Positions 18,089-37,953 of a stretch of 43,047 bases of DNA are shown piece by piece; the stretch's first letter is position 1, and every line of letters starts with the position of its first letter. Origin of the DNA: an uncultured SAR116 cluster alpha proteobacterium. Its GTDB lineage: Bacteria; Pseudomonadota; Alphaproteobacteria; Puniceispirillales; Marisalimonadaceae. The notes beneath the pieces are model-generated. The model ran no database searches and had not been told where the DNA came from. It was given only the letters and a program-made list of their open reading frames with translations. The stretch is taken from assembly GCA_902517275.1 (NCBI GenBank), contig CABYBQ010000010.1, forward strand, positions 1-43,047. The letters run 5' to 3'. The position numbers were made by a program, and so were the translations under genes.

Positions 18089-18109
18089 GGATACTCTTAT
18101 CTTTCTGTT

Positions 18110-18787
18110 ATGTTGAATAACAAATCAGATTTTGTTTTAGAATATAATGAAAATATGAAAGAAAATATTAAAAGAGATGATGTAGATTGGTCTCAATCAA
18201 GAGTAATTTTCATCTCATCCAAGTTTAATGATTATCAAAAAAATAGTGTAAATTTTAAAGATGTTCCATTTGAATTGTGGGAAATTGAAAAGTTTTCAAA
18301 TGGAACAATAGGAATTCAACAAATCCTTTCAAATTCTAAAGAAAGTATTAAAAATTTAGAAAATAAAAATAATACTATTGTTAAGAAAGTTTCGGATGAA
18401 GTTATTAAATACGATGAAGAGACAATTATTACCAAGTATAATAAAAATTCTTTGAATGTTTATGAAAAATTAAAAAAAGAACTACTTGAATTAAATGATA
18501 TATCTATAAAAGTTACAAAAGGTTATGTAAGTTTCTTAAAAAATAAAAAAGGGTTTATTTACCTTAATCCTAGAAAAGATTATTTAGAATTAGATTTTAT
18601 ATATAGAATTGATTTTGAAGGTAAAGTTAAAACTAAGAAAAGTATATTTAAGTTTAATGATCCTGACAAACAGTTTACTTTTCATTCAAACAACTACAAA
18701 GAACAGTATAAACATAAGTTGACTGAAAAAAGTGATATTAGTTATGTAATGTTTTGTTTAAGACAAAAATATGAATCTATGAAGTAA
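18110..18787 (+). CDS. Truncated DUF5655-type nuclease-like protein
   Basis: A 225-residue product resembling the later part of DUF5655-family proteins, which carry an N-terminal PD-(D/E)XK nuclease-like domain and a C-terminal DUF5655 domain. Recognisable segments are MLNNKSDFVLEYNENMK, WSQSRVIFISSKFNDYQK, NFKDVPFELWEIEKF and the C-terminal YEKLKKELLELNDISIKV region. In-frame sequence upstream (SFSVIDQGYSYLSV) also belongs to the family, but the stretch that should hold the catalytic Asp and Glu-x-Lys is replaced by the type-A HTH sequence from the preceding frame. The protein therefore looks like a decapitated cargo gene. The family assignment is from memory of its motifs. Confidence 0.65.
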   Translation: MLNNKSDFVLEYNENMKENIKRDDVDWSQSRVIFISSKFNDYQKNSVNFKDVPFELWEIEKFSNGTIGIQQILSNSKESIKNLENKNNTIVKKVSDEVIKYDEETIITKYNKNSLNVYEKLKKELLELNDISIKVTKGYVSFLKNKKGFIYLNPRKDYLELDFIYRIDFEGKVKTKKSIFKFNDPDKQFTFHSNNYKEQYKHKLTEKSDISYVMFCLRQKYESMK

Positions 18788-18794
18788 TATTTAA

Positions 18795-18887
18795 ATGAGA
18801 AAAGAACTTAAATTATTTTATAAAGTTGTCAGTATTGAAACTCTATTTTGGGTTATTTTGATCATTGGAACTTTGTATTTCATATAA
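18795..18887 (+). CDS. Small single-pass membrane protein (30 aa)
   Basis: A 30-codon frame starting seven bases after the DUF5655-like stop. It encodes a Lys-rich start (MRKELKLFYK) followed by a hydrophobic helix (residues 16-30, LFWVILIIGTLYFI). A similar short basic-then-hydrophobic frame occurs in module 4 at 22545. Position and layout recall small toxic or regulatory membrane peptides, but nothing identifies its role. It could be chance in AT-rich DNA. Confidence 0.35.
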   Translation: MRKELKLFYKVVSIETLFWVILIIGTLYFI

Positions 18888-18971
18888 TTGTAATTAAAAC
18901 TTTTTGAAATTAGTTATTTTTATTTTTATCATTTGAGTTATATTTAAACTACCAAGTTGGATATTTGGATT

Positions 18972-19023
18972 GGTGTAGTAACGACCTAACACGTTCTGGT
19001 GTAGTAACGACCTAATACGTTCT
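18972..19023 (+). repeat. Tandem 26-bp direct repeat
   Basis: Two adjacent 26-base units (18972-18997 and 18998-19023) beginning GGTGTAGTAACGACCTAA, differing by one C/T. Each contains a short AACG...CGTT dyad. They sit 50 bases before the start of the next gene (19073), where a -35/operator region would be. They are more GC-rich than their surroundings. A regulator-binding site or a recombination scar are both possible. Confidence 0.7.
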
Positions 19024-19072
19024 ATTTCCTAATCAAATATTCTTTTTGTTAAAAAAACAACAAGGAGAAATT

Positions 19073-19399
19073 ATGAGAAAAATTGTAAATACGTCTGTTA
19101 TATGTGTTAATATAAAAGTATTTTATGATTATTTTATTTTAGAACCTCTTAAAACATTAAACCCAATGGGTAACTTTTACAGATCCAATCACCTTCATAA
19201 AAAAACTCAAAAATTTATGGAAAATTATTTAAAAAATGGAAACTTACCAAAAGTAGGTGAAAAAGTAATTTCAGATTGTTTGTTTTCTGATTTGAAAATT
19301 ACAAACATATGTTTTGAATATAAAAGAACCAAAGGAGAAACTTTTTTAAAAAACTTAGAGGATAAATTTTTAATAGAAAAACAAAAATTAAATAGGTAA
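19073..19399 (+). CDS. Unknown cargo protein of module 1 (108 aa)
   Basis: A 108-residue protein (MRKIVNTSVICVNIKVFYDY...) with no family I recognise. The start at 19073 is chosen because AAGGAG lies about six bases upstream; an in-frame ATG at 19046 has no such site. The sequence is Lys/Asn-rich without clear membrane segments or signal peptide. It lies immediately before att-like core 2 and behind a tandem 26-bp repeat, so it is the last gene of module 1. Confidence 0.55.
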   Translation: MRKIVNTSVICVNIKVFYDYFILEPLKTLNPMGNFYRSNHLHKKTQKFMENYLKNGNLPKVGEKVISDCLFSDLKITNICFEYKRTKGETFLKNLEDKFLIEKQKLNR

Positions 19400-19411
19400 C
19401 TATGAATCTAT

Positions 19412-19429
19412 TCTGTTACAGTGGAATAG
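19412..19429 (+). repeat. att-like core 2 with perfect dyad
   Basis: TCTGTTACAGTGGAATAG would read Ser-Val-Thr-Val-Glu-stop, but no glmS sequence lies upstream. It sits in a perfect inverted repeat, AATCTATTC (19405-19413), ten-base spacer, GAATAGATT (19424-19432). The wider 46-base stretch 19396-19441 matches 23092-23137 around core 5 at 41 of 46 positions, defining flank type L1. Confidence 0.7.
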
Positions 19430-19544
19430 ATTTAGAAATACTTCTTATTCTGATGAAAAATTTTATTTTGAATATAATTTTTTAGTTGAAACAAAAAGAC
19501 TTGGATTATTTAAACTCAACAAAAAAAGAGAGAATAGAATAAAA

Positions 19545-19799
19545 ATGATCTATTCTTTACATAAAATTGGATTAAGTAACAAAAATATTTCGGATTTTTT
19601 AAATTACTTTAATTTGAGAACACTTAGAACAAACAAAATTTATACTCCAAAATTAATTTGGGGAACTCTCCATAAATATAAAAAACGTCTTAATAGAAAT
19701 CTTGATAAGATAATATGGGTCAAAGAGAGTTTAAACATGTCGGTATCAAAGAAAAATACAATTTTGGAATGGTTTATCGTAGAATTTCAAAGTGGTTAA
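19545..19799 (+). CDS. Type-A HTH protein, copy 2
   Basis: An ATG at 19545 gives 84 residues beginning MIYSLHKIGLSNKNISDF, with LRTLRTNKIYTPKLIWGTL and a basic HKYKKRLNRN tail. The same frame is open upstream to core 2 (QWNRFRNTSY...), as in copies 1, 4 and 5. It is the only copy with an ATG ahead of the helix-turn-helix. The shape resembles the DNA-binding segment of serine recombinases, with no catalytic residues. It may bind the att-like core beside it; that is inference. The last 50 bases overlap the start of a type-B HTH frame. Confidence 0.5.
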   Translation: MIYSLHKIGLSNKNISDFLNYFNLRTLRTNKIYTPKLIWGTLHKYKKRLNRNLDKIIWVKESLNMSVSKKNTILEWFIVEFQSG

Positions 19800-19954
19800 A
19801 TGAAAATGGATACAAAACAATTAGAGGACATTAGTTCAAAAACACTCATGTCTACTCTATTCTGCTTAAGAAAAAGATTTCTGATGAAAGAATATATAAT
19901 ATGTCTAAACCTATAATTACAAACTTTAGAATTAAATTGGTATATAATCATTAA
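19730..19954 (+). pseudogene. Type-B recombinase-like HTH, copy 1, with in-frame TAG
   Basis: The frame reads YNFGMVYRRISKWLNENGYK then TIRGH, a TAG stop at 19832-19834, and FKNTHVYSILLKKKISDERI in the same frame, ending at TAA 19952-19954. It matches copy 2 (21260-21535) on both sides of the stop. The pattern, Leu-Asn-x-x-Gly-Tyr-x-Thr-x-Arg-Gly followed by a basic helix, resembles the PF07508 'recombinase' DNA-binding segment of large serine recombinases. It is probably a decayed fragment; no start codon is evident. Confidence 0.5.
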
Positions 19955-19993
19955 TATTGAATTAAAATGCCATGTATGTTCTATTCATTAATT

Positions 19994-20689
19994 ATGAAAT
20001 GTAAAAAAAGTATAAAAAGTCTATTTTTTCTTTTATTTATATTTATTTTTTTAAACGCATGTAAACCTAATTCCTCTGAAACAATAATTTACACTTCTGA
20101 CGTTGAAGAAGTTAAAAATGGTGAAATTGTTGAGGTGCCCATGAAATTATCTTTTCAAATGTTAGGAGAAGATACAGATAATTCATTGGAGAAATCAAAA
20201 AATATTGCAATAGATTTTTTACATCCAGATTCAAAATTTTATATTACCAAAGGTCAATATACTCAAGATTTTGTTGTAGAAACCTTTGTCCCTATGATTA
20301 AAGCAGATAACAAAATTATAAAATCGTATTTAAAAAATAATAAGCGTCTAGTTTCACTTTATTATCATCCAAAGTTTACACAAAGAGGATCTGACAAAAT
20401 TGAACTTGTTTTTCAAAAATCTTTTGCTAAATCTTTGAATCAAAAACTTTTTAATATAAACCCTTTATTGCAATTGAAATTTCCTGCACAAGAAACAAAA
20501 TTTAGAGTTGTTAGTGATAGTAAAAAAGAAAAAAAAGTAGGCGCTTATTCTGTATGGGTTTCAAAAAAACCATTTTTATCAAAAATTGCTACTTTAAAAC
20601 GCAGGCAAGAGATTGTATTTGTTTTTAAAGGTGGTGCGGATAGCGTGTATAGTAATATTAATCCACATATTTATTTAATAAATAAGTAG
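19994..20689 (+). CDS. Predicted lipoprotein, cargo of module 2
   Basis: A 231-residue protein with a basic start (MKCKKSIKS), a hydrophobic core and lipobox LNAC, so Cys would be lipidated in the periplasm or outer membrane. An in-frame ATG at 19967 would add nine residues before the signal sequence; 19994 gives a normal lipoprotein signal. The mature part, beginning KPNSSETIIYTSDVEEVKNG and continuing VPMKLSFQML, is beta-rich with no family I can name confidently. It ends just before att-like core 3 and is the sole complete cargo gene of this module. Confidence 0.7.
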   Translation: MKCKKSIKSLFFLLFIFIFLNACKPNSSETIIYTSDVEEVKNGEIVEVPMKLSFQMLGEDTDNSLEKSKNIAIDFLHPDSKFYITKGQYTQDFVVETFVPMIKADNKIIKSYLKNNKRLVSLYYHPKFTQRGSDKIELVFQKSFAKSLNQKLFNINPLLQLKFPAQETKFRVVSDSKKEKKVGAYSVWVSKKPFLSKIATLKRRQEIVFVFKGGADSVYSNINPHIYLINK

Positions 20690-20722
20690 TTGGATAAATG
20701 TAAAACAACACAACCCCACTAT

Positions 20723-20740
20723 TCAATTACCGTGGAGTAG
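20723..20740 (+). repeat. att-like core 3
   Basis: TCAATTACCGTGGAGTAG would read Ser-Ile-Thr-Val-Glu-stop, the most divergent copy at the DNA level yet conserved in codon meaning. The 40 bases 20701-20740 match 22169-22208 around core 4 at 36 of 40 positions, including ACACAACCCCACTA, which defines flank type L2. Confidence 0.65.
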
Positions 20741-20873
20741 TTCGGAACGGACTTTTTACCGAAGTATATAGATACTTTAATTTTTTATATTTTGAGTTAA
20801 ACAAAGGTTTAACAACCTTATACCTGAACAAAACCCAAATAGATATTCTGAAAAACAACTTAAAACATACCGT

Positions 20874-21092
20874 TTGATTAATTCTCTTAATAAAAAGGGA
20901 TTAGGTTATAGAAAAGTTTCAAAGTATCTCAATTCCATTAACGTTAGAACTTATAGTGGACGAACTTGGACAGGGAGTCTGGTGTATTCTGTTATGAAAC
21001 GTTTTAGAGAAAGACAAGCAAGATTAAAGCAAAAGAATAAAAAATATCCTATATATCGTTCAAAGATGATTATGAAGTTTGAGAAAGAGTAA
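20874..21092 (+). CDS. Type-A-like HTH protein, copy 3
   Basis: A 72-residue frame from a TTG at 20874, INSLNKKGLGYRKVSKYLNS then VRTYSGRTWTGSLVYSVMKR and a basic tail. It is the most recombinase-like copy, with the Gly-Arg-x-Trp-Thr segment typical of PF07508. The frame upstream (PNRYSEKQLKTYR) extends the similarity back to about 20797, but stops at 20770-20796 separate it from core 3. Start choice is weak because no ATG exists. A stem-loop with a T-run follows about 100 bases downstream. Confidence 0.5.
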   Translation: MINSLNKKGLGYRKVSKYLNSINVRTYSGRTWTGSLVYSVMKRFRERQARLKQKNKKYPIYRSKMIMKFEKE

Positions 21093-21190
21093 TCTATATT
21101 TCTCTCTGGATACTATCGTAGTTTATAGATTAGGTATTGACTTTATTAATTATAAATGACCATCCCCGAAATCTAGTAATGTCATTAACA

Positions 21191-21242
21191 GTTGAATGAT
21201 GGGGTTAGGTGGCATTTAGATAATCCTAATATTCAACTTTTT
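21191..21242 (+). terminator. Stem-loop with T-run
   Basis: Outer arms GTTGAAT (21191-21197) and ATTCAAC (21231-21237), inner arms TTAGG (21205-21209) and CCTAA (21225-21229), then a run of five T. The stem is interrupted by an asymmetric GATGGGG bulge. It could end transcription of the copy 3 HTH gene. The left part also resembles an inverted copy of the L2 flank (AACCCCA-n3-TTCAA), so an element end is an alternative. Confidence 0.4.
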
Positions 21243-21259
21243 ATATCATTTACAATTAA

Positions 21260-21535
21260 AATAACTGCTTCACATTTAGAAAAATAAGATATTTACCATT
21301 TCAACATGAATTATGGAATATTTGTAATTCTATACAAGAAGAGGGTGCTACATTTCTTGCTATTGCAAAGTATCTAAATGAAAATGGTTATAAATCTGCT
21401 CGTGGAAAATTATTTAAAAACTCACACATACATTCAATACTTGAAAACAAGTTAGTAGCAGACAATAGAATAAATAAAATAAATGAACCAAGTACTGAAA
21501 ACTTACACATATATTATTGTAAGAATTTGTGTTGA
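21260..21535 (+). pseudogene. Type-B recombinase-like HTH, copy 2
   Basis: Open frame of about 91 codons without an ATG, reading FQHELWNICNSIQEEGATFL, IAKYLNENGYKSARGK and LFKNSHIHSILENK, ending at TGA 21533-21535. It matches the type-B copy at 19730-19954 (LNENGYK, then Arg-Gly, then FKN-His-x-x-Ser-Ile-Leu). The pattern fits the DNA-binding 'recombinase' segment of large serine recombinases. The catalytic domain is absent, so it is a fragment or a stand-alone DNA-binding piece. It ends six bases from the convergent lipoprotein gene. Confidence 0.45.
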
Positions 21536-21540
21536 GAAAA

Positions 21541-21999
21541 TTACGTGCTCTTTTTAAATGGAAAGATACAAATTAATTTTTCTTCTTTAAACTTAAAATT
21601 AATATTATCTTCATTTATAATTAATTCTAGTTTAACAGTTTCGCCAGAAATACCTTTTAAGGTAATCATATTATCGTTTAATTTTGTTTCTTGACCAAGG
21701 TCATCCCAAAAAATTTTATCTTTAAATAATTCTATTGTTGTTGGAGTTGTATCAACATCCATTAATTTGCTCATATCAGGTGCTTCATTAGATTTTAACA
21801 TATTAAGCAATTCTTTTGAGAAAAGAATAGAAGTTAATCCACAACTTAATTCGTCCATTGGTGCATTTGAGACTGTATATTTTTTAATATTCTTTTGCAT
21901 TTCATTTGAATCAAACACATATTTTTGTGATGCATAAGTTTTGCTACAACCTATTAATAAACATAAAATTATAATAGGTAAAAAAGTTATTTTATTCAT
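21541..21999 (-). CDS. Predicted lipoprotein, cargo of module 3
   Basis: A 152-residue protein with signal sequence MNKITFLPIIILCLLIGCSK and lipobox LIGC, so it is likely a lipid-anchored envelope protein. The mature region contains MDELSCGLTSILFSKELLN and a beta-rich C-terminus (VKLELIINEDNINFKFKEEK). I do not recognise the family. It is encoded on the strand opposite to the HTH frames, has no close partner gene, and occupies the end of module 3 before core 4. The upstream 190 bases to core 4 hold no other gene that I can support. Confidence 0.65.
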   Translation of the reverse strand: MNKITFLPIIILCLLIGCSKTYASQKYVFDSNEMQKNIKKYTVSNAPMDELSCGLTSILFSKELLNMLKSNEAPDMSKLMDVDTTPTTIELFKDKIFWDDLGQETKLNDNMITLKGISGETVKLELIINEDNINFKFKEEKLICIFPFKKST

Positions 22000-22190
22000 T
22001 GCCTAAACCAGTATTTAGATAAAGTATAAATATTATTTAATTTGAAAGATTAAAGTTGAAATGTCAAATCATATACAAATAATTTATAATTTAAGGATTG
22101 AACTTATACAATTTTATCAAAATTGAAATTAAACTTTAAATATGTTTTGTTTGTTAAGTTATGAAATATAAAACCACACAACCCCACTAA

Positions 22191-22208
22191 TCAATTACAG
22201 TGGAATAG
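22191..22208 (+). repeat. att-like core 4
   Basis: TCAATTACAGTGGAATAG would read Ser-Ile-Thr-Val-Glu-stop. Its left flank (22169-22190) is the L2 type shared with core 3; its right flank runs into type-A HTH copy 4, closer to those after cores 2 and 5. This mix of flanks fits independent joining at the core. Confidence 0.7.
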
Positions 22209-22545
22209 ATTTAAAAGTAGTATCTTTGAATACAGATTTTATTTTCGGTTTCAAATTTTAATCCAAACTAACAAATTAAGTGTATTTCGGATAGGAAATG
22301 AAAGACTTAAAAGATTAGACCTGATTTATAATCTTCACAAAAACGGTTTAACTAATAAAGAAATTTGTGAATATCTTTCATTAAAAAAATTTAAAACGTT
22401 TAGATCACAAAATGATTATACACTTAAACTGATTTGGGGAAGAATCCAGAAATACGAAAAGAGATTACAAAGAAATAATAATAAAATATTATTTGTAAGG
22501 GAAAGTTTGTATGTAGAAAAATTTTGGAAAGACAATTCAGAATAA
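22201..22545 (+). pseudogene. Type-A HTH reading frame, copy 4
   Basis: Open frame from the core, QWNRFKSSIFEYRFYFRFQI then ERLKRLDLIYNLHKNGLTNK, LKKFKTFRSQNDYTLKLIWG and a basic tail, ending TAA at 22543-22545. It is 115 codons with no ATG, GTG or TTG start before the helix-turn-helix. The protein-level match to copies 1, 2 and 5 is continuous from the core to the stop, so the frame has been under coding constraint somewhere. Its stop overlaps the ATG of the small membrane peptide (TAATG). Function unknown. Confidence 0.5.
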
Positions 22546-22622
22546 TGTGGGAAATTTATAAAAAGTTTTTATTAATAATTGGGGTAAGTGTAATTTTTGT
22601 TTTTGTTTTATATTCGTTATAA
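22545..22622 (+). CDS. Small single-pass membrane protein (25 aa)
   Basis: A 25-residue frame, MWEIYKKFLLIIGVSVIFVF and then VLYSL, whose ATG overlaps the TAA of HTH copy 4. It has a short basic N-terminus and one hydrophobic helix, like the peptide at 18795-18887 in module 1. The overlap suggests translational coupling if the HTH frame is translated. Too short to assign. Confidence 0.35.
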   Translation: MWEIYKKFLLIIGVSVIFVFVLYSL

Positions 22623-22639
22623 TTAGAAAAATTAAATCA

Positions 22640-23035
22640 TTATTTTTTAGACGATTTCTCTAAGGAACAAATAAAATCAGTAAAGTACATTCCAATAGAC
22701 CCTTTTTTGAATGTTATCCAATTTCCAACTTCATTTAAAACTTTTGATTTACCTTTTCCCATATTTCTTTCGTAGTAAATATCTTTTAAAAATCTACTTT
22801 GTAATTTGTTACAATCAGTTTCAATATGAATAATATTTGAATTTTCACCATATTGATCTTTTTTTTTGTAGTTCCTAAGTCTTAAATAGAATCTTTTGTT
22901 ATCCTTAATTACAAAAGAATTCATATCGATATAAAAATTACCGTTTTCAGTTTTTGTTATGAGTTTCCAATCATAAACCCCAAAACAAACCGAAGGAAAT
23001 AGTAAAAAAATTATTAAAGTTAAAATTCTATTCAT
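22640..23035 (-). CDS. Exported surface-adhesin E-like protein
   Basis: A 131-residue secreted protein. The start at 23035 gives a proper signal peptide (MNRILTLIIFLLFPSVCFG); an upstream in-frame ATG at 23107 would run into att-like core 5 and bury the signal sequence. The mature pattern, Trp-x-x-Ile...Asn-Gly-x-x-Tyr-Ile-Asp (VYDWKLITKTENGNFYIDMN), a Tyr/Lys-rich middle, an Asp-Cys (IETDCNKLQSR), and a C-terminal Cys after TFKKGSIGMYFTDFIC, matches the small 'surface-adhesin protein E' (PF16747-type) fold. It is the cargo of module 4. Family call is by motif memory. Confidence 0.6.
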   Translation of the reverse strand: MNRILTLIIFLLFPSVCFGVYDWKLITKTENGNFYIDMNSFVIKDNKRFYLRLRNYKKKDQYGENSNIIHIETDCNKLQSRFLKDIYYERNMGKGKSKVLNEVGNWITFKKGSIGMYFTDFICSLEKSSKK

Positions 23036-23107
23036 ATTGATATGATAATTTAAATAAAACCAAATGTGAAATAATCTCTGTTTTTGATATAGTAACTTTA
23101 AATCCAT

Positions 23108-23125
23108 TCCGTTACAGTGGAATAA
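23108..23125 (+). repeat. att-like core 5
   Basis: TCCGTTACAGTGGAATAA would read Ser-Val-Thr-Val-Glu-stop. The surrounding 23092-23137 is the L1 flank shared with core 2, and its dyad (AAATCCATTC, ten bases, GAATAAATTT) is imperfect. This is the most distal copy; no sixth copy was seen up to yhbY. Confidence 0.7.
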
Positions 23126-23462
23126 ATTTAGAAATACGTATTACGATTATAAATTATTTGTAAATTTTAGAGTTATAGCTCGAACTAATAGGTTAGGTAT
23201 ATTTCGTATCCGAAATGAAAAACTTAGAAGATTAGAATTAATTTATAGTTTACATAAAAAAGGATTAACTAATAAAGAAATTTCAGAACATCTATATGAT
23301 ATAAATCTAAAAACTTTTGGAACAAATGATATTTATACACCAAAGATAATTTGGATGACACTTAAGAAATATAGAATAAGACTTTTAAGAAATAATTATA
23401 ATATTATACAAATAAAAATAAAATTTTTAAACAATACGACTGAAACAATAACCTACAGTTAA
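23118..23462 (+). pseudogene. Type-A HTH reading frame, copy 5
   Basis: Open frame of 114 codons from the core to TAA 23460-23462, including QWNKFRNTYYDYKLF, LRRLELIYSLHKKGLTNKEI, LKTFGTNDIYTPKIIW and a basic KKYRIRLLRN tail. No ATG, GTG or TTG start precedes the helix-turn-helix. It aligns residue by residue with copy 2 starting before the core (SN-F-K-SI-LQWN against GN-Y-E-SI-LQWN). Function unknown; resembles the DNA-binding piece of serine recombinases. Confidence 0.5.
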
Positions 23463-23518
23463 GTGAAATTTTGAGACAACTAAAAAAAAATTTAAAAAGA
23501 GTAATTGTGATAGGATAA

Positions 23519-23608
23519 ATGTTGCTTTTCCCATTTATTTTGAATGCTGAATATATTGATCCTTCTTGGTCTGTAACTAAAAATTTTAGAAAGGTTATTA
23601 TTTTTTAA
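23519..23608 (+). other. Short frame resembling a truncated exported protein
   Basis: A 29-codon frame (MLLFPFILNAEYIDPSWSVT...) that looks like the hydrophobic end of a signal peptide plus the first residues of a mature protein. It may be the remnant of a lost cargo gene; equally it may be chance. The rest of the gap between HTH copy 5 and the gene at 23663 shows nothing else I can support. Confidence 0.2.
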
Positions 23609-23662
23609 ATTAATTATAAAGTTAATATTGTATTCTCAGTTTTCTTTCATTATGTAACTATC

Positions 23663-24166
23663 ATGTTCAAAATAATATCTATAACAATTATATTTTTTCT
23701 CCACTCTTTACCTTCTTATGGAAGTATTGATAGTAAAGGAATTATCTGTAAATGTTTAGATTGTAAGTTAAATCATTTAGATCCTTCTTCATACTTACCC
23801 AATAAAAAACCTACTGAAATAGGATTTCATTTTAAAATTAATAAAGTAGCAATATATTATATTAGCAAAATCGGAGATAATATTAAAGTCAGTGAGAATA
23901 TTCAGACAACTCTAAGAAAGAAAAAAAGATTTTATCTAGACCAAAATGAAATTAAGTGGACTTATAAAGATAGTTTAAATATTTATGCGTACGAATTAGA
24001 TAGGAAAACTTTAATCTTAAGCAAAATGAACATTACAAAAACCAAAACGCTTAATCGTAGAAATTGTAAAGCATATTCAGAAATTGAATTTTTTAAAAAT
24101 ATGAATTTATTGTCTGAAAAATATCAAATTTATTATGATAAAAAACCCAATAAGAATAAAATTTAA
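23663..24166 (+). CDS. Exported protein of unknown function, cargo of module 5
   Basis: A 167-residue protein with signal peptide MFKIISITIIFFLHSLPSYG. The mature part starts with a Cys-rich GIICKCLDCKLNHLDP, then GFHFKINKVAIYYISKI, a Lys-rich middle, IKWTYKDSLNIYAYELDRKT and NRRNCKAYSE. I know similar short exported proteins (Cys near the start, Gly-x-x-Phe, Ile-x-Trp, Leu-Asp-Arg-Lys-Thr) from marine alphaproteobacteria only as unnamed hypotheticals, so no function is given. It is followed by the convergent XRE regulator gene. Confidence 0.65.
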   Translation: MFKIISITIIFFLHSLPSYGSIDSKGIICKCLDCKLNHLDPSSYLPNKKPTEIGFHFKINKVAIYYISKIGDNIKVSENIQTTLRKKKRFYLDQNEIKWTYKDSLNIYAYELDRKTLILSKMNITKTKTLNRRNCKAYSEIEFFKNMNLLSEKYQIYYDKKPNKNKI

Positions 24167-24192
24167 ATAAGTTAAGAACTTAAATAATCTTG

Positions 24193-24603
24193 TCATTTAT
24201 ATTTCCATTTAATACCATTTTCATTAATTCTCCATTCATCTAATTCTTTAATCAGCATTTCATAATTTTTGCTTATTTGTCCCTTAGTAAACCAACCGTT
24301 AATTGATAAATTCACATAACCTGGTTTTCTTTTGTGGTAAACCCTATGAAAAGAATTAGTTTGATTGTTTAGAAAATCATCGTCTATTTCTCTTAATATT
24401 TTTCCTTGAAAAACTTCATTAGGTTCACAGTTGAATATTTTTGATAATTTCTTGATATGTTTATTAACATTAGTTTTGCCTTTTTCAATTCTAGAATATT
24501 GCGATTGAGTAATACCAAGAAGTTTAGACATATCTTGCTGACTATATCCAAGTTGAGATCTTCTTCTTTCAAGTGGATTTGTTAACTTAGAATTTTTAAA
24601 CAT
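24193..24603 (-). CDS. XRE-family transcriptional regulator
   Basis: A 136-residue protein with an N-terminal Cro/CI-type helix-turn-helix (about residues 9-65: RRSQLGYSQQDMSKLLGITQ, then QYSRIEKGKTNVN, then LSKIFNCEPNEVFQG). The C-terminal 70 residues are not recognisable and end NENGIKWKYK. It is the last gene of the island, next to core gene yhbY, and reads toward the modules. A perfect 21-bp operator overlaps its promoter, indicating self-repression. It may control the island or may be a lone remnant of a mobile element. Confidence 0.85.
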   Translation of the reverse strand: MFKNSKLTNPLERRRSQLGYSQQDMSKLLGITQSQYSRIEKGKTNVNKHIKKLSKIFNCEPNEVFQGKILREIDDDFLNNQTNSFHRVYHKRKPGYVNLSINGWFTKGQISKNYEMLIKELDEWRINENGIKWKYK

Positions 24604-24609
24604 ACTTTT

Positions 24610-24639
24610 ACATATTATGTAATAATATGTCTATGTCAA
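24610..24639 (-). promoter_or_regulatory. XRE promoter with perfect 21-bp operator
   Basis: ACATATTAT (24610-24618), three-base centre GTA, ATAATATGT (24622-24630) is a perfect dyad. On the minus strand TTGACA (24639-24634) is a consensus -35, and AATATG (24616-24611) lies 17 bases downstream as -10. The dyad covers the spacer and -10, the expected position for autorepression by the XRE protein whose gene starts at 24603. Confidence 0.6.
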
Positions 24640-24745
24640 TATATTTATTAAAATTAATTTATTTATTGAATTAAATATAAGTTTGCTATTATTTCTCTTT
24701 TAGAAAAATCTTATAATAAACAGTTCAAATTATTAGGCATATATT

Positions 24746-25027
24746 ATGAAAAATATTCTTTCAAGTATTGAAAAGAAAGCATTACGAAAAAAAGCTTACT
24801 CACTTAAACCTGTTGTTATGATTGGTCAAAAAGGTCTTACTGATGCTGTTCTAGCTGAAATTGATGTTTCTCTGCATTCACATGAACTTATAAAAATTCG
24901 TATTAGGGGTGCCAATAAAATTGAGCGTTATAATCTATGTTTGAAGATAGAACAAAAATTAAACGCAGAATTGGTACATCAAATAGGTTTCATTAAAGTT
25001 TTTTATAGAGCTAATTTAAAAAATTAA
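24746..25027 (+). CDS. yhbY: Ribosome-associated RNA-binding protein YhbY (CRM domain)
   Basis: A 93-residue single CRM-domain protein, binding pre-50S rRNA during ribosome assembly. It has the family motifs LRKKAYSLKPVVMIGQKGLT, the ELIKIRIRG strand and a C-terminal GFIKVFYR. Length is standard for YhbY. It is preceded by an AT-rich promoter-like region, and marks the return to core genes after the glmS island. Confidence 0.92.
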   Translation: MKNILSSIEKKALRKKAYSLKPVVMIGQKGLTDAVLAEIDVSLHSHELIKIRIRGANKIERYNLCLKIEQKLNAELVHQIGFIKVFYRANLKN

Positions 25028-25055
25028 TTTATTTTAAAAAATAATAACCTAGATT

Positions 25056-26195
25056 CTATTTTTTTATATTCGCTTGATTAAGTAAAGTACTAATTTTCTT
25101 TTTAAAATTAAAAAAACCTTTAGTAGCGTGTTGGAAAGCATTACAATCCCATTCTCTTAAATAGAAGGTATATCTTACTTCTAAATTTGTAATATTTTTT
25201 AAAAATTCATTTTCGTAGAATACTTTATTTCCAACTGTTTCATAAGGTAAGATCAAATTTTTTATATTTTTATCTTTCAACCATTTATAAATATCCTGAA
25301 AATTATTTACAGACACAATATTATGGTCATTATTTTTAATATCTTCACATATTTTTTTTTGAAAATTATTAATCAAAATATTTTTGTGCTCTTTAAAAAG
25401 TAAACAGCACTCAAATATTATTTCTTTTTCTTTTAATAGTTGGTGTAAGGACAAATCATTGTTATTTAAAATAATACCTAAATTTTCATATTTTATTAAT
25501 TTCTTTGCGTCAGGTTTTATAAAATCTTTTGGCTTACCATTTGTCAAATTTTGATTATTTAAAATGAAATTTTCTTTTAATTCGTTTTGTGGATAAAATC
25601 TTTTATTAGTAAAAAATTTTATATTATCCGCTCTAGCTAAGTAAGGTTTCCCGATTGTTTGTAATCCAGCAACCCATCTCCATCCTAGAGTGTTTGAAGC
25701 AGGACAAAAATCAAGTAGGTTATTTTTAAAAAAATTAGCTCCGGATTGCCAACTATAGCCTAAAGTAAAGATCCAAATACTTGCAAACCACATACGTGAA
25801 TGATTATGAAGATATCCAGTATCTAATAATTCTTCCTTCCAATGTTCAAAACATTTTATACCTGTTTTCTCAGGAATACATTCATCTTTATCATACGTCT
25901 TATATTGATCATAAATCCATGGATGACTTTCAAGCCATCCTCTCCAATATGTTCTCCAAAAAATCTCTTCAATAAATTTTTCTATTTCATTAATTTTGTG
26001 ATATCTAAGGACTATGCTTAAGATCTCTTCTTCACTTATAAACCTTCTTCTTAGATAAGGAGATATTTTTGATACATTATGATGAGGTGATCCATAATCA
26101 AAATTCCTATTAGACGCATAATTTTGAAGTTTATTTTGACTGAAATTAATCAAATTCGTTATTAATTCTGATTTTGTAAAAGGAAAATTAGTCAT
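25056..26195 (-). CDS. Photolyase/cryptochrome-type FAD-binding protein lacking the N-terminal antenna domain
   Basis: The first two thirds match the FAD-binding helical domain of DNA photolyases and cryptochromes: NFDYGSPHHNVSKISPYLRR, IEEIFWRTYWRGWLESHPW, TGYLHNHSRMWFASIWIFTL, CPASNTLGWRWVAGLQTIGK and YLARADNI. The usual N-terminal alpha/beta photolyase domain is absent; the protein begins almost directly with the helical domain. The last 150 residues look alpha/beta (YENLGIILNNNDLSLHQLL; IKNLILPYETVGN; LREWDCNAFQHATKGFF), possibly a degraded or displaced equivalent. Binding of FAD and a light-driven repair or sensing role are inferred from the family. Gene is 379 codons and downstream of the DUF3429 gene by seven bases. 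Confidence 0.8.
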   Translation of the reverse strand: MTNFPFTKSELITNLINFSQNKLQNYASNRNFDYGSPHHNVSKISPYLRRRFISEEEILSIVLRYHKINEIEKFIEEIFWRTYWRGWLESHPWIYDQYKTYDKDECIPEKTGIKCFEHWKEELLDTGYLHNHSRMWFASIWIFTLGYSWQSGANFFKNNLLDFCPASNTLGWRWVAGLQTIGKPYLARADNIKFFTNKRFYPQNELKENFILNNQNLTNGKPKDFIKPDAKKLIKYENLGIILNNNDLSLHQLLKEKEIIFECCLLFKEHKNILINNFQKKICEDIKNNDHNIVSVNNFQDIYKWLKDKNIKNLILPYETVGNKVFYENEFLKNITNLEVRYTFYLREWDCNAFQHATKGFFNFKKKISTLLNQANIKK

Positions 26196-26202
26196 TAATT
26201 TC

Positions 26203-26688
26203 TCAAGGAGTTTGCATTATAAAATATGAATATATTAAAATAAGAACTACAAATAATGTTAATGTACGTCTTAAAGGTAAATACCAACTTGGAAATAACA
26301 AAAATTTATAACATATTTCGTCGACTAATTGACATAACAAGAAACCTATAGATAGCAATAAAAGGCTGAAATTGCTTTTCATAGTTAGAATTATAATTGC
26401 TAAAATTGAGGGTGCAACTGACCAAATGATAATACAAAATCTAATTTGTTCAGTAACAAGATTTTCTCTCGGTAAATTCAATATAGAACCCCAATAAATC
26501 GCCCCTAAAAATGTTAAAATAATAGATCCATAATATTTTGGTAGATTAACTACAAAAAATAAATTATTTTTATTAATCAATAAATCAAGTAATCCTATGG
26601 AAAAAGGGAATAAGCCTAATAGACCTATGAAAATAAATAGTTTTTCACTTTTATTTAACAAATTTTTTTTAATGGTTATTTTTCTCAA
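26203..26688 (-). CDS. DUF3429 family membrane protein
   Basis: A 161-residue protein with five predicted membrane helices. The segments FIGLLGLFPFSIGLLDLLIN and YYGSIILTFLGAIYWGSIL match the DUF3429 (TMEM69-like) family, whose function is unknown. It is upstream of, and on the same strand as, the photolyase-like gene (seven bases apart). In many proteobacteria DUF3429 genes neighbour photolyase-type genes, so the pair may share a transcript. Confidence 0.8.
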   Translation of the reverse strand: MRKITIKKNLLNKSEKLFIFIGLLGLFPFSIGLLDLLINKNNLFFVVNLPKYYGSIILTFLGAIYWGSILNLPRENLVTEQIRFCIIIWSVAPSILAIIILTMKSNFSLLLLSIGFLLCQLVDEICYKFLLFPSWYLPLRRTLTLFVVLILIYSYFIMQTP

Positions 26689-26763
26689 TTAAATTACTTT
26701 TATGATCATTTAAATTTCCTTCATGTTATTCTATTTGAGAGATATTGTTTATAGTTTTACCTA

Positions 26764-30405: not shown

Positions 30406-31863
30406 TTAACATAAAACTTTGCCTGGATTCATAATTCCTTTTGGGTCTAATTGATTTTTTATAATCTTCATAAGAGAATAGGCAACATTATTTTTGTGGG
30501 TTTTTAAGTTATTTTTCTTTAATTGCCCAATTCCATGTTCAGCAGAAAAAGATCCATTGTATTTATGGACAATCTCATAAAGCTTATTAGTTAAATTTAG
30601 GCTTTCACCCTTAAATCCATCTGGTAATGATCCATTCCCAAAAATATTATAATGAAGATTGCCGTCACCTAAGTGTCCAAAATATATAGTCCTTAATTCG
30701 GGTAAAAAATTTGATATCATATTTTGTGCATCTTTATGAAAATCGTCAATAGATTCGACAGGAAGAGAAATATCATGTTTTAAACATTTAATTAAGTTAG
30801 ATTTTTCAAGTTCTTTTTTTTCAGACTCAGCAGCGGCTTCTCTGATTGACCATAATGATTTACTTTGATTTTCATTTTTACAAATAGTTGCATCAGATAT
30901 TAAGTTTTTTTCAAAACATTCTTCTAATACATTCTCAATTGTTTTAATTATTGGGATTTCACCTTCTTCATTAGGAGAAGTGTTATCTTTAGAGTAACTA
31001 GAAATATCTATCAAAACACCCATCTCAGGCGTTTTATATAAAGGTAGTATAATTTTTTCGATATTATTTTTAGCAACCTCCCAGAAAACTTTTGGCATAA
31101 GTTCAAATGATTCAATTCTGTCTGGAAAATATGACTTGAAAATATTAAGTAATTTTATAGAATTCGAAATGTTATCTGCATCTACAAATAACGTAGAGAC
31201 CATTTTTGGCAATTGAAAAAGTTTCAAAGTAGCCGCAGTTATTATACCAAGAGTACCTTCCGCTCCAATAAAAATATTTTTTAAATCGTATCCAGTATTA
31301 TCTTTTTTTAGTTCTGAAAGTAGGTTCATTATTTTACCATCTGGTAAAACCACTTCTAAACCAAGGCAAAGTTCTCTTGTATTACCATATTTTAAAACAT
31401 TAACACCACCAGCATTTGTTGATAAATTCCCACCGATCATGCATGACCCTTTAGCACCTAAACTTAGTGGAAAAAACAAATTTTCATTTTCTACTATCTC
31501 GTGAATTTGAGATAGTACCATACCAGACTCAACAGTAATAGTTTGAGCAGCTTTATTAAATTGTCGAATATTATTCATTTTCTCTAATGAAATAATGATA
31601 GATCTTCCTGTGTTGTCTGGGGTTGCTGCCCCACAGAGGCTTGTGTTTCCTCCTTGAGGAACAACATCAACATTATTTTTATGGGCAAATCTTAAGATAG
31701 CTGAAACTTCTTCTGTATTAATAGGTTTTAATATAGCTGCAGCCTGTCCTTTATATTGTCCTCGCCAGTCATTCACGTATTTGCTATGATCATCTTTATT
31801 GAATAAAGGTGGATGTTTTAGATTAAGTGTTCTGAGATCAATATCTAAAAGTGTTTGTTGCAT
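30406..31863 (-). CDS. FAD-binding oxidase (GlcD/D-2-hydroxyacid dehydrogenase type)
   Basis: A 485-residue flavoprotein of the VAO/FAD_binding_4 family that oxidises D-2-hydroxy acids such as D-lactate, glycolate or D-2-hydroxyglutarate. The FAD domain shows VVPQGGNTSLCGAATPDNTG and GGNLSTNAGGVNVLKYGNTR; the C-terminal FAD-oxidase_C domain shows HLGDGNLHYNIFG and SAEHGIGQLKK. Exact substrate cannot be read from sequence. The gene lies 19 bases after the CysQ-Sua5 fusion on the same strand; FAD oxidase next to sua5 is common in alphaproteobacteria. Confidence 0.85.
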   Translation of the reverse strand: MQQTLLDIDLRTLNLKHPPLFNKDDHSKYVNDWRGQYKGQAAAILKPINTEEVSAILRFAHKNNVDVVPQGGNTSLCGAATPDNTGRSIIISLEKMNNIRQFNKAAQTITVESGMVLSQIHEIVENENLFFPLSLGAKGSCMIGGNLSTNAGGVNVLKYGNTRELCLGLEVVLPDGKIMNLLSELKKDNTGYDLKNIFIGAEGTLGIITAATLKLFQLPKMVSTLFVDADNISNSIKLLNIFKSYFPDRIESFELMPKVFWEVAKNNIEKIILPLYKTPEMGVLIDISSYSKDNTSPNEEGEIPIIKTIENVLEECFEKNLISDATICKNENQSKSLWSIREAAAESEKKELEKSNLIKCLKHDISLPVESIDDFHKDAQNMISNFLPELRTIYFGHLGDGNLHYNIFGNGSLPDGFKGESLNLTNKLYEIVHKYNGSFSAEHGIGQLKKNNLKTHKNNVAYSLMKIIKNQLDPKGIMNPGKVLC

Positions 31864-31882: not shown

Positions 31883-33664
31883 TTAAGTTTTATAAGACGC
31901 TCTTTTCAAGCGATCATTTATAGCAATTCCAACTCCTTTGTTGGGTATTGGCATTACTTGAATATTTTCAACACCACAAGAGTCTAGGTAACGTAAACCT
32001 GAAAATAGCAAATAACATGCTTGAATTAAATTTTTATTAGGACTTAAATTAAACAGATTTTGTTTTTTCTGCAATGATTTTGGAGTATTCCCAAAAATTA
32101 ACCAGCCACTATTTTTCATATTAGATTTTTGATTTAAATGGACATTTGCATTTGGTGAGTAGTGACTTTTTAACAGTCCAGGAGAAATCATCTCTTCATT
32201 GCTTTTAATATCCATGACTTTAGTTTTTACAGCATTATAAATCATCTCAGCAGTTATATAGCCGTGTCTGAGTATAATTGGGTTATCTCCACGACAATCA
32301 ACTACAGTAGATTCAATTCCAACTTCACAAAACCCGTAATCAATTATTTTAGAAAGCTTCCAACCATTACCTTTAAATTTTGGTCCAAAATCATCAATAA
32401 CATGTTTAGCAGTTGTTGGACTTACACCACCAGACTTATTTGCACTAGGAGCTAGGATAGGGATTTTTACTCTTTCTAGCAAATCAAGTGCTACGGGATG
32501 AGATGGTACTCTAATTCCAAGACTACTTTTACCTTGTGATAATAGATTTGATTTATCATTTTTTTGTGTTTGTAATATTATAGTCAGTGGACCTGGCCAG
32601 AATTTACTAGTTAATCTATTTGCAACATCTGTAAATTGTACATATTTTTCAGCTTCGTTTTTATTATATGTATGAGCTATCAAAGGATTGCTTAATGGAC
32701 GATCTTTAGCAGAATATATGCTTTTAATTGCTTTTTTACTGTTTCCTATCGCCCCAATCCCATAGACGGTCTCAGTAGGAAACGCTACTAGTTCTTTTTT
32801 ATTTAAAGCATTAGCTGCTAAGGTTAAATCGATTTCATATTTTTTGTTATTTGTATTACTTAGGTTTAATAGAAACTTACATGGTAAATCATTAGTAAGA
32901 CCATAAGCCAAGAATTTTTCATTTTTGAAATTTTCTTTACCATATCTCATTTCCAAACCTGAATTGGAAATGATATTTCCGCCAGCAGCTTTAAGAATAC
33001 TATGCCCAGCCGCAATGTCCCACTCCATAGTTGGAGAAGTACGAGGATAAAAATCAACTTGACCTTCAGCTAAATAACAAAACTTTACACTAGATCCAAC
33101 ATCTCGATCTGAAACAGGATTAAAAGTGGAAATCCAATTTTCTAATTCTTTTGATCTATGATTTAAGCTGCTTAAAATTTTTAAATTATTGTAATCAATT
33201 TGATTACATTGTATCTGCTTAGAACTTTCAAATTCTTCATCTTTTTCTAATTTCCATGCCTTACCTTTGAAGTTATACCAAATATTACCAGTGTAAGGTT
33301 GTGATATTAATCCAAATATGGGTAAATTATTTTTTATAAGAGCAAAATTCACAGTGAAATTTGGCTTCTTATTTATAAACTCTTTGGTACCATCTATTGG
33401 ATCAATTAACCAAAAAACATTATTATTTCTGAAGAATTTCTGAGATTTCTCAAACTCTTCACTAACAATTTTAACCTTTGGAAAAAGTTTTTTTATCCCA
33501 TTAACCGCTATTTGATTAACTTCAAGATCTGCTTGAGTAAGTGGAGAGTTGTCATTTTTGTACTTTACCTGATTAAAACTAAGATTTTGAAAATGCAACA
33601 TTGCACATTTATTACATTGCCTTGCTAAATCAATTAAGTGAAAAAGTTTTTTTAAACTAATCAT
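31883..33664 (-). CDS. CysQ-like phosphatase fused to Sua5-type threonylcarbamoyl-AMP synthase
   Basis: A 593-residue two-enzyme fusion. Residues 1-255 are an inositol monophosphatase/CysQ domain with Mg-binding motifs EE in VSEEFEK, DPIDGTKEF and WDIAAGHSIL, which would hydrolyse 3'-phosphoadenosine 5'-phosphate (PAP). Residues 270-593 are a Sua5/YciO domain with PTETVYGIGAIGNSK, KDRPLSNPLI, FWPGPLTIIL, APSANKSGGVSPTT and IESTVVDCRGDNPIILRHG, plus the C-terminal Sua5 domain; this makes threonylcarbamoyl-AMP for the t6A37 tRNA modification. No internal stop separates them. The start overlaps the AlkA-like gene (ATGA). Confidence 0.9.
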   Translation of the reverse strand: MISLKKLFHLIDLARQCNKCAMLHFQNLSFNQVKYKNDNSPLTQADLEVNQIAVNGIKKLFPKVKIVSEEFEKSQKFFRNNNVFWLIDPIDGTKEFINKKPNFTVNFALIKNNLPIFGLISQPYTGNIWYNFKGKAWKLEKDEEFESSKQIQCNQIDYNNLKILSSLNHRSKELENWISTFNPVSDRDVGSSVKFCYLAEGQVDFYPRTSPTMEWDIAAGHSILKAAGGNIISNSGLEMRYGKENFKNEKFLAYGLTNDLPCKFLLNLSNTNNKKYEIDLTLAANALNKKELVAFPTETVYGIGAIGNSKKAIKSIYSAKDRPLSNPLIAHTYNKNEAEKYVQFTDVANRLTSKFWPGPLTIILQTQKNDKSNLLSQGKSSLGIRVPSHPVALDLLERVKIPILAPSANKSGGVSPTTAKHVIDDFGPKFKGNGWKLSKIIDYGFCEVGIESTVVDCRGDNPIILRHGYITAEMIYNAVKTKVMDIKSNEEMISPGLLKSHYSPNANVHLNQKSNMKNSGWLIFGNTPKSLQKKQNLFNLSPNKNLIQACYLLFSGLRYLDSCGVENIQVMPIPNKGVGIAINDRLKRASYKT

Positions 33665-34299
33665 AATGTATAGCTTGCTTTTTCTACTTTTACTTTATTG
33701 TAAAAGTGCCATAAAAATAGGGCTGCTGCCGCTCTATGAGGCTTCCACATACTTCCAATTTTTTCCATCTCTTTTTCATTTGGTCTTGTTTCTAAACCCT
33801 TTAATAGTTTAACAGCTTCTTGCAGGGCTAAGTCAGCAGATGGCCAAGCGTTTGTATCTTGCAGAGCAAATATTTTGTAATTATTAATTGTCCAATGTCC
33901 AATTCCTTTAATTTTTATCAATAAATTTGTAACTTCATCACTATTTTGCTTATTAAGATAATCCAAATTAATTTCATTTTTAACTACTAATATTGCTAAA
34001 TTTTTTAGATAAAATGATTTTTGAGAAGATAACCCATAAAGCTTTAATTGTTCTATGCTGGCCTCAGACATTTCCTTTTCATTTAACATACCAGCTTTTT
34101 TTAATTTATCACTTAGAGATTTTGCTACACTAGTTGAAATTTGTTGTCCAATTATAATCTTAGCAAGGCTCTCAAAACCTTCCTTGATTGTACGATTAAG
34201 GGGCCAACCAAATTGCTCAAAAACTTTTTTAAAGCTTTCATCAATTTTAATAATACTGTAAAATGAACTGATCATATTGGTATTCCATCTTAAATTCAT
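33661..34299 (-). CDS. AlkA-like DNA-3-methyladenine glycosylase
   Basis: A 212-residue HhH-GPD base-excision glycosylase removing alkylated purines. The helix-hairpin-helix reads KIKGIGHWTINNYKIFALQD, and the catalytic Asp lies in NAWPSADLALQEA. The tail WKPHRAAAALFLWHFYNK is typical of DNA-3-methyladenine glycosylase II. An internal ATG at 34275 could be an alternative start. The stop overlaps the CysQ-Sua5 start by four bases, so both genes are cotranscribed with the FAD oxidase. Confidence 0.9.
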   Translation of the reverse strand: MNLRWNTNMISSFYSIIKIDESFKKVFEQFGWPLNRTIKEGFESLAKIIIGQQISTSVAKSLSDKLKKAGMLNEKEMSEASIEQLKLYGLSSQKSFYLKNLAILVVKNEINLDYLNKQNSDEVTNLLIKIKGIGHWTINNYKIFALQDTNAWPSADLALQEAVKLLKGLETRPNEKEMEKIGSMWKPHRAAAALFLWHFYNKVKVEKASYTL

Positions 34300-36960: not shown

Positions 36961-37953
36961 TCATAATAATCCACCGTTTCCCATATAATTAATATTATTA
37001 TTAGAGATGCCTAATCCACAAAAGATTCGCCATAATATCCAATCTACACCATTTTCTTTTGGAGAACGAGCGCATCCAGGCATACCTATGAAAGTAATTG
37101 TTTTGTATGCATTTTTAATCTCTCCTAAGAGTATCAAATTTCCAGGTTCTACAGGCATTCCTAACCGTAAAATTTTTCCGTTATTTTTTTTCAAAGATTT
37201 TGGGACAACGTCATTTTTATCACATATAGCAGACGCTCCAAAAACTAAAATTAAGTCTGCGTTTTCGTCAATACTCTCATGTATTTTCGATGATAATGAT
37301 TTAATTTCATGATTACATTTCTTTTCTAAAATGCTAGTAATACCACAATTAAGCAATCTTTTTTTTGTAGTAACTACAGTTTTTTCCAAAACTTTTTCAA
37401 GGGTATTTTGATTACGACTTTGAATTAAGTGAACATTTTTTTTTAGGAAAGGTAAGACCTTAAAACAATTATTTGATGCTTTAATTATTTGTTTTAATAC
37501 TTCTTTATTTATTGCAAAAGGGATGGCTTTTATAGATGCGATTACTTGGTTTTTTTTGACATATGAATAAGGCTTTAAACTAGCAACTCCAATTTCATCT
37601 GTCACTGAATTTATTAAAAATAACTGTTCATGATCAAATACCAACAATCCGTTTATATTTGATATTATATTACATCTCCCTTGTCTTGGACCTTTGATAG
37701 TTAAACTAGACTGCTCATTATTTAGTATATTTTTTGAAATTTCATGAACTGCTTTATTTTCTTCTACGTCATCTTTATCTAGTTTGGCACAAGTTACTAA
37801 TTTAATATCATTTTTTAATAACAAATTAATTAATTTTTTATTTATTATTGTACCTTTTTTAACCTTAATTATATCCTTGTTTTCATGTAATATTAATGAC
37901 GATGCCAAGATGCCATTCATTGATGATTCTGTTTTAATTTCTCCAAATATCAT
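36961..37953 (-). CDS. Molybdopterin-binding (MoeA-like) protein, apparently truncated
   Basis: A 330-residue protein with a MoCF_biosynth/MoeA-like domain: ADLILVFGASAICDKNDVVP, then KILRLGMPVEPGNLILLG and TFIGMPGCARSPKENGVDWI, ending NINYMGNGGLL. In alphaproteobacteria the full-length relative (annotated as 'molybdopterin-binding/glycosyltransferase family 2', about 530 residues) continues after this point with a MobA-like nucleotidyltransferase domain. Here a stop occurs exactly at the domain edge and ArsC debris follows. No molybdoenzyme or other cofactor gene is in the window, so the present function is unclear. Confidence 0.75.
   Translation of the reverse strand: MIFGEIKTESSMNGILASSLILHENKDIIKVKKGTIINKKLINLLLKNDIKLVTCAKLDKDDVEENKAVHEISKNILNNEQSSLTIKGPRQGRCNIISNINGLLVFDHEQLFLINSVTDEIGVASLKPYSYVKKNQVIASIKAIPFAINKEVLKQIIKASNNCFKVLPFLKKNVHLIQSRNQNTLEKVLEKTVVTTKKRLLNCGITSILEKKCNHEIKSLSSKIHESIDENADLILVFGASAICDKNDVVPKSLKKNNGKILRLGMPVEPGNLILLGEIKNAYKTITFIGMPGCARSPKENGVDWILWRIFCGLGISNNNINYMGNGGLL

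Follow-up and report, generated by a model that had tools for sequence, protein, structure and literature searches.

Gene features of the locus

The window is the whole 43,047-nucleotide stretch of DNA that was analysed; it comes from a genome of 1.2 Mb that is 53 % complete and whose named relatives are SAR116 single-cell genomes. A single open reading frame on its minus strand, without internal stop or frameshift, encodes a CysQ-type phosphatase followed by a Sua5-type threonylcarbamoyl-AMP (TC-AMP) synthase. The fused gene, its parts and its two neighbours are as follows:

30406..31863, minus strand: FAD-linked oxidoreductase (GlcD / 2-hydroxyacid dehydrogenase type), downstream, 19 bp after the fused frame
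31883..33664, minus strand: fused CysQ-Sua5 coding sequence, 593 amino acids, ATG at 33664, stop codon at 31883-31885
31895..32257, minus strand: SUA5 C-terminal domain and interdomain loop, residues 470-590 (PG 495-496, HY 501-502)
32261..32809, minus strand: TsaC-like (YrdC) catalytic domain, residues 286-468 (K320xR322, S407xN409, signature P406)
32810..32905, minus strand: joint, residues 254-285, from the CysQ tail to the first helix of Sua5
32906..33640, minus strand: CysQ / IMPase-superfamily phosphatase domain, residues 9-253 (E69-E70, D88-P-I-D91-G-T, W215-D216)
33661..34299, minus strand: HhH-GPD DNA glycosylase (AlkA-like), upstream, overlapping the fused frame by 4 bp

The initial annotation of this DNA had given the position (31883-33664) and the length of 593 exactly, leaving the strand, which is the minus strand, unstated. 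The FAD-linked oxidoreductase is a conserved neighbour of sua5 across the SAR116 order.

Elsewhere in the window, a 330-amino-acid open reading frame (36961-37953, minus strand) has no Pfam match and is kept beside the fused locus in three genera at 38-95 % identity; by eye, its C-terminal half looks like a molybdopterin-binding domain. Positions 18100-26700 hold short, sparse open reading frames and an Xre-like regulator, in contrast to the dense genes on either side, and are possibly a variable island.

Domain architecture and conserved residues

Pfam profiles matched the fused protein at residues 10-236 (Inositol_P, E 2e-45), 286-468 (Sua5_yciO_yrdC, over the whole profile length, E 4e-50) and 470-590 (Sua5_C, PF03481, profile positions 1-135 of 136, E 8e-19). 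The NCBIfam model TIGR00057 matched residues 279-477, and the CysQ model TIGR01331 aligned nearly end to end with residues 9-253, at 223.9 bits against a strict cut-off of 228.8. Relatives of solved structure are CysQ 3b8b for the N-terminal part (E 1e-33) and Sua5 6f87, 2eqa and others for the C-terminal part (E down to 1e-45). The Pfam and NCBIfam matches bear out the original assignment of the halves as a PAP phosphatase-like enzyme and a TC-AMP synthase.

Conservation was assessed in an alignment of 41 fused proteins, comprising 40 full-length sequences and that of genome G065. In the phosphatase half E69, D88, P89, D91, G92, T93, W215 and D216 are invariant in all 41 and E70 is the same in all but one, that one being an ambiguous base; the IMPase metal-binding motifs EE, DPIDGT and WD are thus found in 41/41 except for this ambiguous base and one I-to-V change. 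With the Sua5 motifs defined as in PMC10321239, the tetrad K320xR322 / S407xN409, the signature P406, P495-G496 and H501-Y502 are each present in 41/41 sequences, and a GVE-type interdomain motif is found as G449, I/L450 and E451. The KPSPT motif retains SPT alone, its K and P being lost, and reads mostly GVSPT. Intact motifs in both halves had been noted from the window itself, and for the active-site residues checked they extend to all 41 sequences.

It could be argued that one half is a pseudo-enzyme, for example that the CysQ domain is a mere structural module, since the CysQ scores of most members lie slightly under the NCBIfam cut-off (203-230 bits among the full-length fused members, two of which pass). 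This is very improbable: that cut-off is reached in just 2 of 14 control genomes, the metal-binding and catalytic residues listed above do not vary, and the fused CysQ is the only CysQ in every genome of the family but one.

Distribution in the family AAA536-G10

Genomes carrying the fusion belong to a single family of the SAR116 order, coded f1 in our analysis and taken to be the GTDB family AAA536-G10. The full-length fused frame occurs in 40 genomes from four genera of this family, at 48-98 % identity and with no stops, and is held by six named public single-cell records. Two further copies, in G065 and G029, are incomplete and end at contig ends, and one, in G030, is broken by a chimeric contig, giving 43 of 58 genomes. 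These 43 are every AAA536-G10 genome that has any PF01300 domain over cut-off, with one such gene each, and in all of them the fused copy is the sole Sua5/TsaC gene over cut-off. The remaining 15 lack both the fusion and the orthologous oxidoreductase downstream (78-80 % identical in G013 and G030). Because this neighbour is missing as well, the locus was probably not assembled in these 15 genomes, and a loss of the fusion from them was rejected.

G030 has cysQ and sua5 on different contigs, and gene fission was considered and rejected in favour of chimeric contigs, as the flanking DNA looks foreign. Next to the sua5 half lies a second cysteinyl-tRNA synthetase, which shares only about 40 % identity with that of the family, and the cysQ half is flanked by unrelated genes. 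Although G030 is listed as 100 % complete, its contigs look chimeric at the fused gene (L080:1-1600, and L081:1-3240 beyond CysQ): on one side SAR116 sequence passes into DNA with the divergent synthetase, on the other into DNA with a PrmC gene.

Single-cell genomes, which may contain chimeras, are the named sources of the fusion, and G030 is clearly chimeric at this very gene. An artefact of assembly, sequencing or single-cell amplification that joined two genes is nevertheless effectively refuted by the recurrence of the same joint in 40 full-length assemblies at 48-98 % identity, with purifying selection across it. The joint, which the initial annotation had proposed to verify in independent assemblies, carries no stop or frameshift in any of these 40 frames, and the absence of an internal stop from the window's own frame was likewise upheld. 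The CysQ-Sua5 frame is a genuine gene fusion, fixed in AAA536-G10.

The joint between the two halves

A short linker had been placed at residues 255-270. A joint is present, but it lies slightly later, at about 254-285, and has little extra sequence, the CysQ tail meeting the first helix of Sua5. The distance from F251 to F295 is 45 residues in 36 of the 41 aligned sequences and 46 in the other five. Pooled pN/pS over 21 close pairs was 0.21 for CysQ, 0.18 for the joint and 0.17 for Sua5; the joint, being like both domains in this respect, evolves as constrained coding sequence.

Since the domain termini meet here with little sequence between them, the two activities could be made separately from the fused frame, by internal initiation or by proteolysis at the joint. 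Between residues 245 and 294, however, an in-frame ATG or GTG occurs in only 10 of the 41 fused sequences, at differing sites, and none is conserved, which makes conserved internal initiation of a free Sua5 unlikely. Separate products are on the whole quite improbable, and the protein is presumably translated as one uncleaved chain. An AlphaFold model built from a shallow alignment of seven sequences had a mean pLDDT of 30 and was uninformative on the domain arrangement.

Non-fused relatives and search outside the family

In the sister family f2 the gene order is AlkA - X - cysQ - sua5 - FAD oxidoreductase, with cysQ and sua5 as separate, adjacent, co-directional genes between the same flanks; they overlap by 4 bp in some genomes and are 9, 12 or 33 bp apart in others. 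Families f3 and f4 have an AlkA - X - sua5 - FAD cluster without cysQ, which is located elsewhere; in G042 it comes after two open reading frames that look by eye like cysD-cysNC in G009. Outside the order, other Alphaproteobacteria repeatedly have cysQ and sua5 in tandem, with 0-24 bp between them.

In the other SAR116 families, most members have some 700-940 bp between AlkA and cysQ or sua5 (L079, L085, L098-L101). This stretch is absent from AAA536-G10 and from G043, consistent with local compaction.

Outside AAA536-G10 no fused frame was present among the matches listed for the other genomes of the order and for 385 genomes of the class and 398 of the phylum, the search beyond the order covering about 740 distinct Pseudomonadota genomes. 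A full-length fusion would top such match lists; one with a very divergent half could escape. Four candidates with long frames were rejected: G040, whose 624-residue open frame translates with two stops between the genes, and G407, G191 and G201, in which CysQ and Sua5 lie in different open reading frames.

Origin of the fusion

The trees of both domains unite all fused sequences in a single clade with full support. In the Sua5 tree f3 is sister to this clade (support 97/93), a grouping that would agree with the low-GC subclade described in PMC8547437, but both lineages are rich in AT. In the CysQ tree from which long branches had been removed, the fused CysQ groups with the sua5-adjacent cysQ of f2 (93/86); the alternative grouping with the lone SAR116 cysQ clade was not rejected (p-AU 0.126). 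The CysQ half may descend from a sua5-adjacent copy, a descent that is not strongly supported.

In this lineage of 28 % GC, the fused loci have a GC content of 26-29 % and gene spacings of -11 to +41 bp, bar a few that reflect start-codon calls. The subclade containing AAA536-G10 has been described as streamlined, with about 30 % GC and spacers under 22 bp (PMC8547437). Operon compaction and a real coupling of the two activities had both been proposed at the outset as the cause of the fusion. The evidence strongly favours compaction in a streamlined genome over functional coupling, because cysQ and sua5 are adjacent in f2 and other Alphaproteobacteria, the loci combine low GC with near-zero spacing, and the lineage is streamlined; no evidence was found for metabolic coupling.

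The fusion would have had a single origin, the loss of a stop codon between adjacent, co-directional cysQ and sua5 genes during genome streamlining, with an ancestral order of cysQ, then sua5, then the FAD oxidoreductase. In the most economical history, an ancestral cysQ-sua5 pair would first have lost stretch X, which separated AlkA and cysQ, and then the stop codon, the latter in the ancestor of AAA536-G10.

Predicted function

The catalytic activities of both halves and the substrate of the CysQ half are deduced from their sequences. The N-terminal half is predicted to dephosphorylate 3'-phosphoadenosine phosphates, converting PAP to AMP and Pi, and the C-terminal half to form TC-AMP from threonine, bicarbonate and ATP for tRNA t6A37 and to hand it to TsaBDE. 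The reaction of the second half is the established one of the Sua5 family. As the only Sua5/TsaC gene found, the fused Sua5 must be active if the cells make t6A, and TC-AMP synthesis by the fused protein is to be expected; TsaE, a partner in t6A formation, exceeds the cut-off in 40 of the 58 AAA536-G10 genomes.

PAP, an inhibitor of sulfotransferases and oligoribonuclease, is a product of PAPS-using enzymes and of CoA metabolism (PMC8268124). Just 17 of the 58 genomes gave a strong PAPS_reduct match over the full length. The one looked at, in G009, is a CysD encoded in an accessory cysD-cysNC-cysQ cassette, whose cysQ stands alone. AcpS was found in 38 of the 58, the source genome included. 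This enzyme releases PAP from CoA and is a general source of PAP. Given the few genomes with PAPS_reduct, the separate cysQ of the G009 cassette and the frequency of AcpS, the fused CysQ is best seen as a putative housekeeping PAP phosphatase rather than as a part of sulfate assimilation. It would remove PAP from CoA-dependent carrier-protein activation and, in some strains, also from sulfation. The link to sulfur metabolism made initially is weak, as such PAPS_reduct matches occur in only those 17 genomes.

The accessory cassette of G009 with the stand-alone cysQ (L083:3040-7200) is set among genes that by eye resemble sugar-transferase and nucleotide-sugar genes, which suggests that some members of the genus use it to supply PAPS for sulfated surface glycans.

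PAP and t6A pathways share no obvious intermediate and the sequence gives no hint of channelling or allostery, so the two active sites are taken to be independent, the fusion probably just fixing co-expression and stoichiometry. Under a coupling of the halves, the level of PAP, as a read-out of CoA, sulfur or stress, or the AMP and Pi released by CysQ, would modulate TC-AMP synthesis and convey nutrient state to t6A and translation. The fixation of the fusion in four genera, the almost invariant length of the joint and the recurrence of cysQ-sua5 adjacency in Alphaproteobacteria speak for such a coupling. It is unlikely, given that the joint evolves like the remainder of the protein, that two other SAR116 families have a distant cysQ and sua5 beside the same neighbours, that the reactions have no obvious common intermediate, and that a literature search of partial coverage gave no paper tying CysQ to Sua5. 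Slightly less likely still is its more specific form, a regulatory device in which PAP or its hydrolysis controls TC-AMP synthesis, so that CoA or sulfur status tunes t6A and decoding in oligotrophs, the Alphaproteobacterial adjacency being a looser form of the same arrangement. Were coupling true, PAP metabolism would be linked to a universal tRNA modification. The best explanation overall, in which we have good confidence, is a bifunctional protein with independent halves that arose by operon collapse.

Comparison with known systems and significance

The N-terminal half resembles the CysQ 3'(2'),5'-bisphosphate nucleotidase (TIGR01331; IMPase/FIG superfamily) in its full-length domain, all checked metal and catalytic motifs and a near-cut-off score, and differs in that its C-terminus is joined to Sua5 and that all but one genome of the lineage lack a separate CysQ. 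The C-terminal half is like Sua5-type TC-AMP synthases (PF01300 and PF03481; 6f87, 2eqa), having both domains, the KxR/SxN tetrad, the signature Pro, PG, HY and GxE, but has an added N-terminal phosphatase domain and a KPSPT motif diverged to mostly GVSPT. HypF and TobZ combine YrdC and Kae1-like domains (PMC10321239, PMC9654439), and these, like the 1008-residue chain of PDB 8ide, attach a YrdC-type domain to a second enzyme domain. In those proteins the product of YrdC is used by its partner, whereas the metabolite on which CysQ acts is unrelated. The relative G009 has CysN-CysC (sulfate adenylyltransferase/APS kinase), which also unites two activities in one protein, but these are consecutive steps of one pathway, which those of CysQ and Sua5 are not. 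No report of a CysQ-Sua5 fusion was found in the part of the literature that was covered, and provisionally it is apparently an unreported domain architecture of two known enzymes that arose by an ordinary process.

The fusion adds to the universal Sua5/TsaC family an architecture that is fixed across a whole bacterial family. Sua5 apparently accommodates a large N-terminal partner, given that no TC-AMP synthase other than the fused one was found. The locus also offers a well-resolved case of two neighbouring genes becoming fused in a streamlined lineage, and sister families in which they are separate can serve for comparison.
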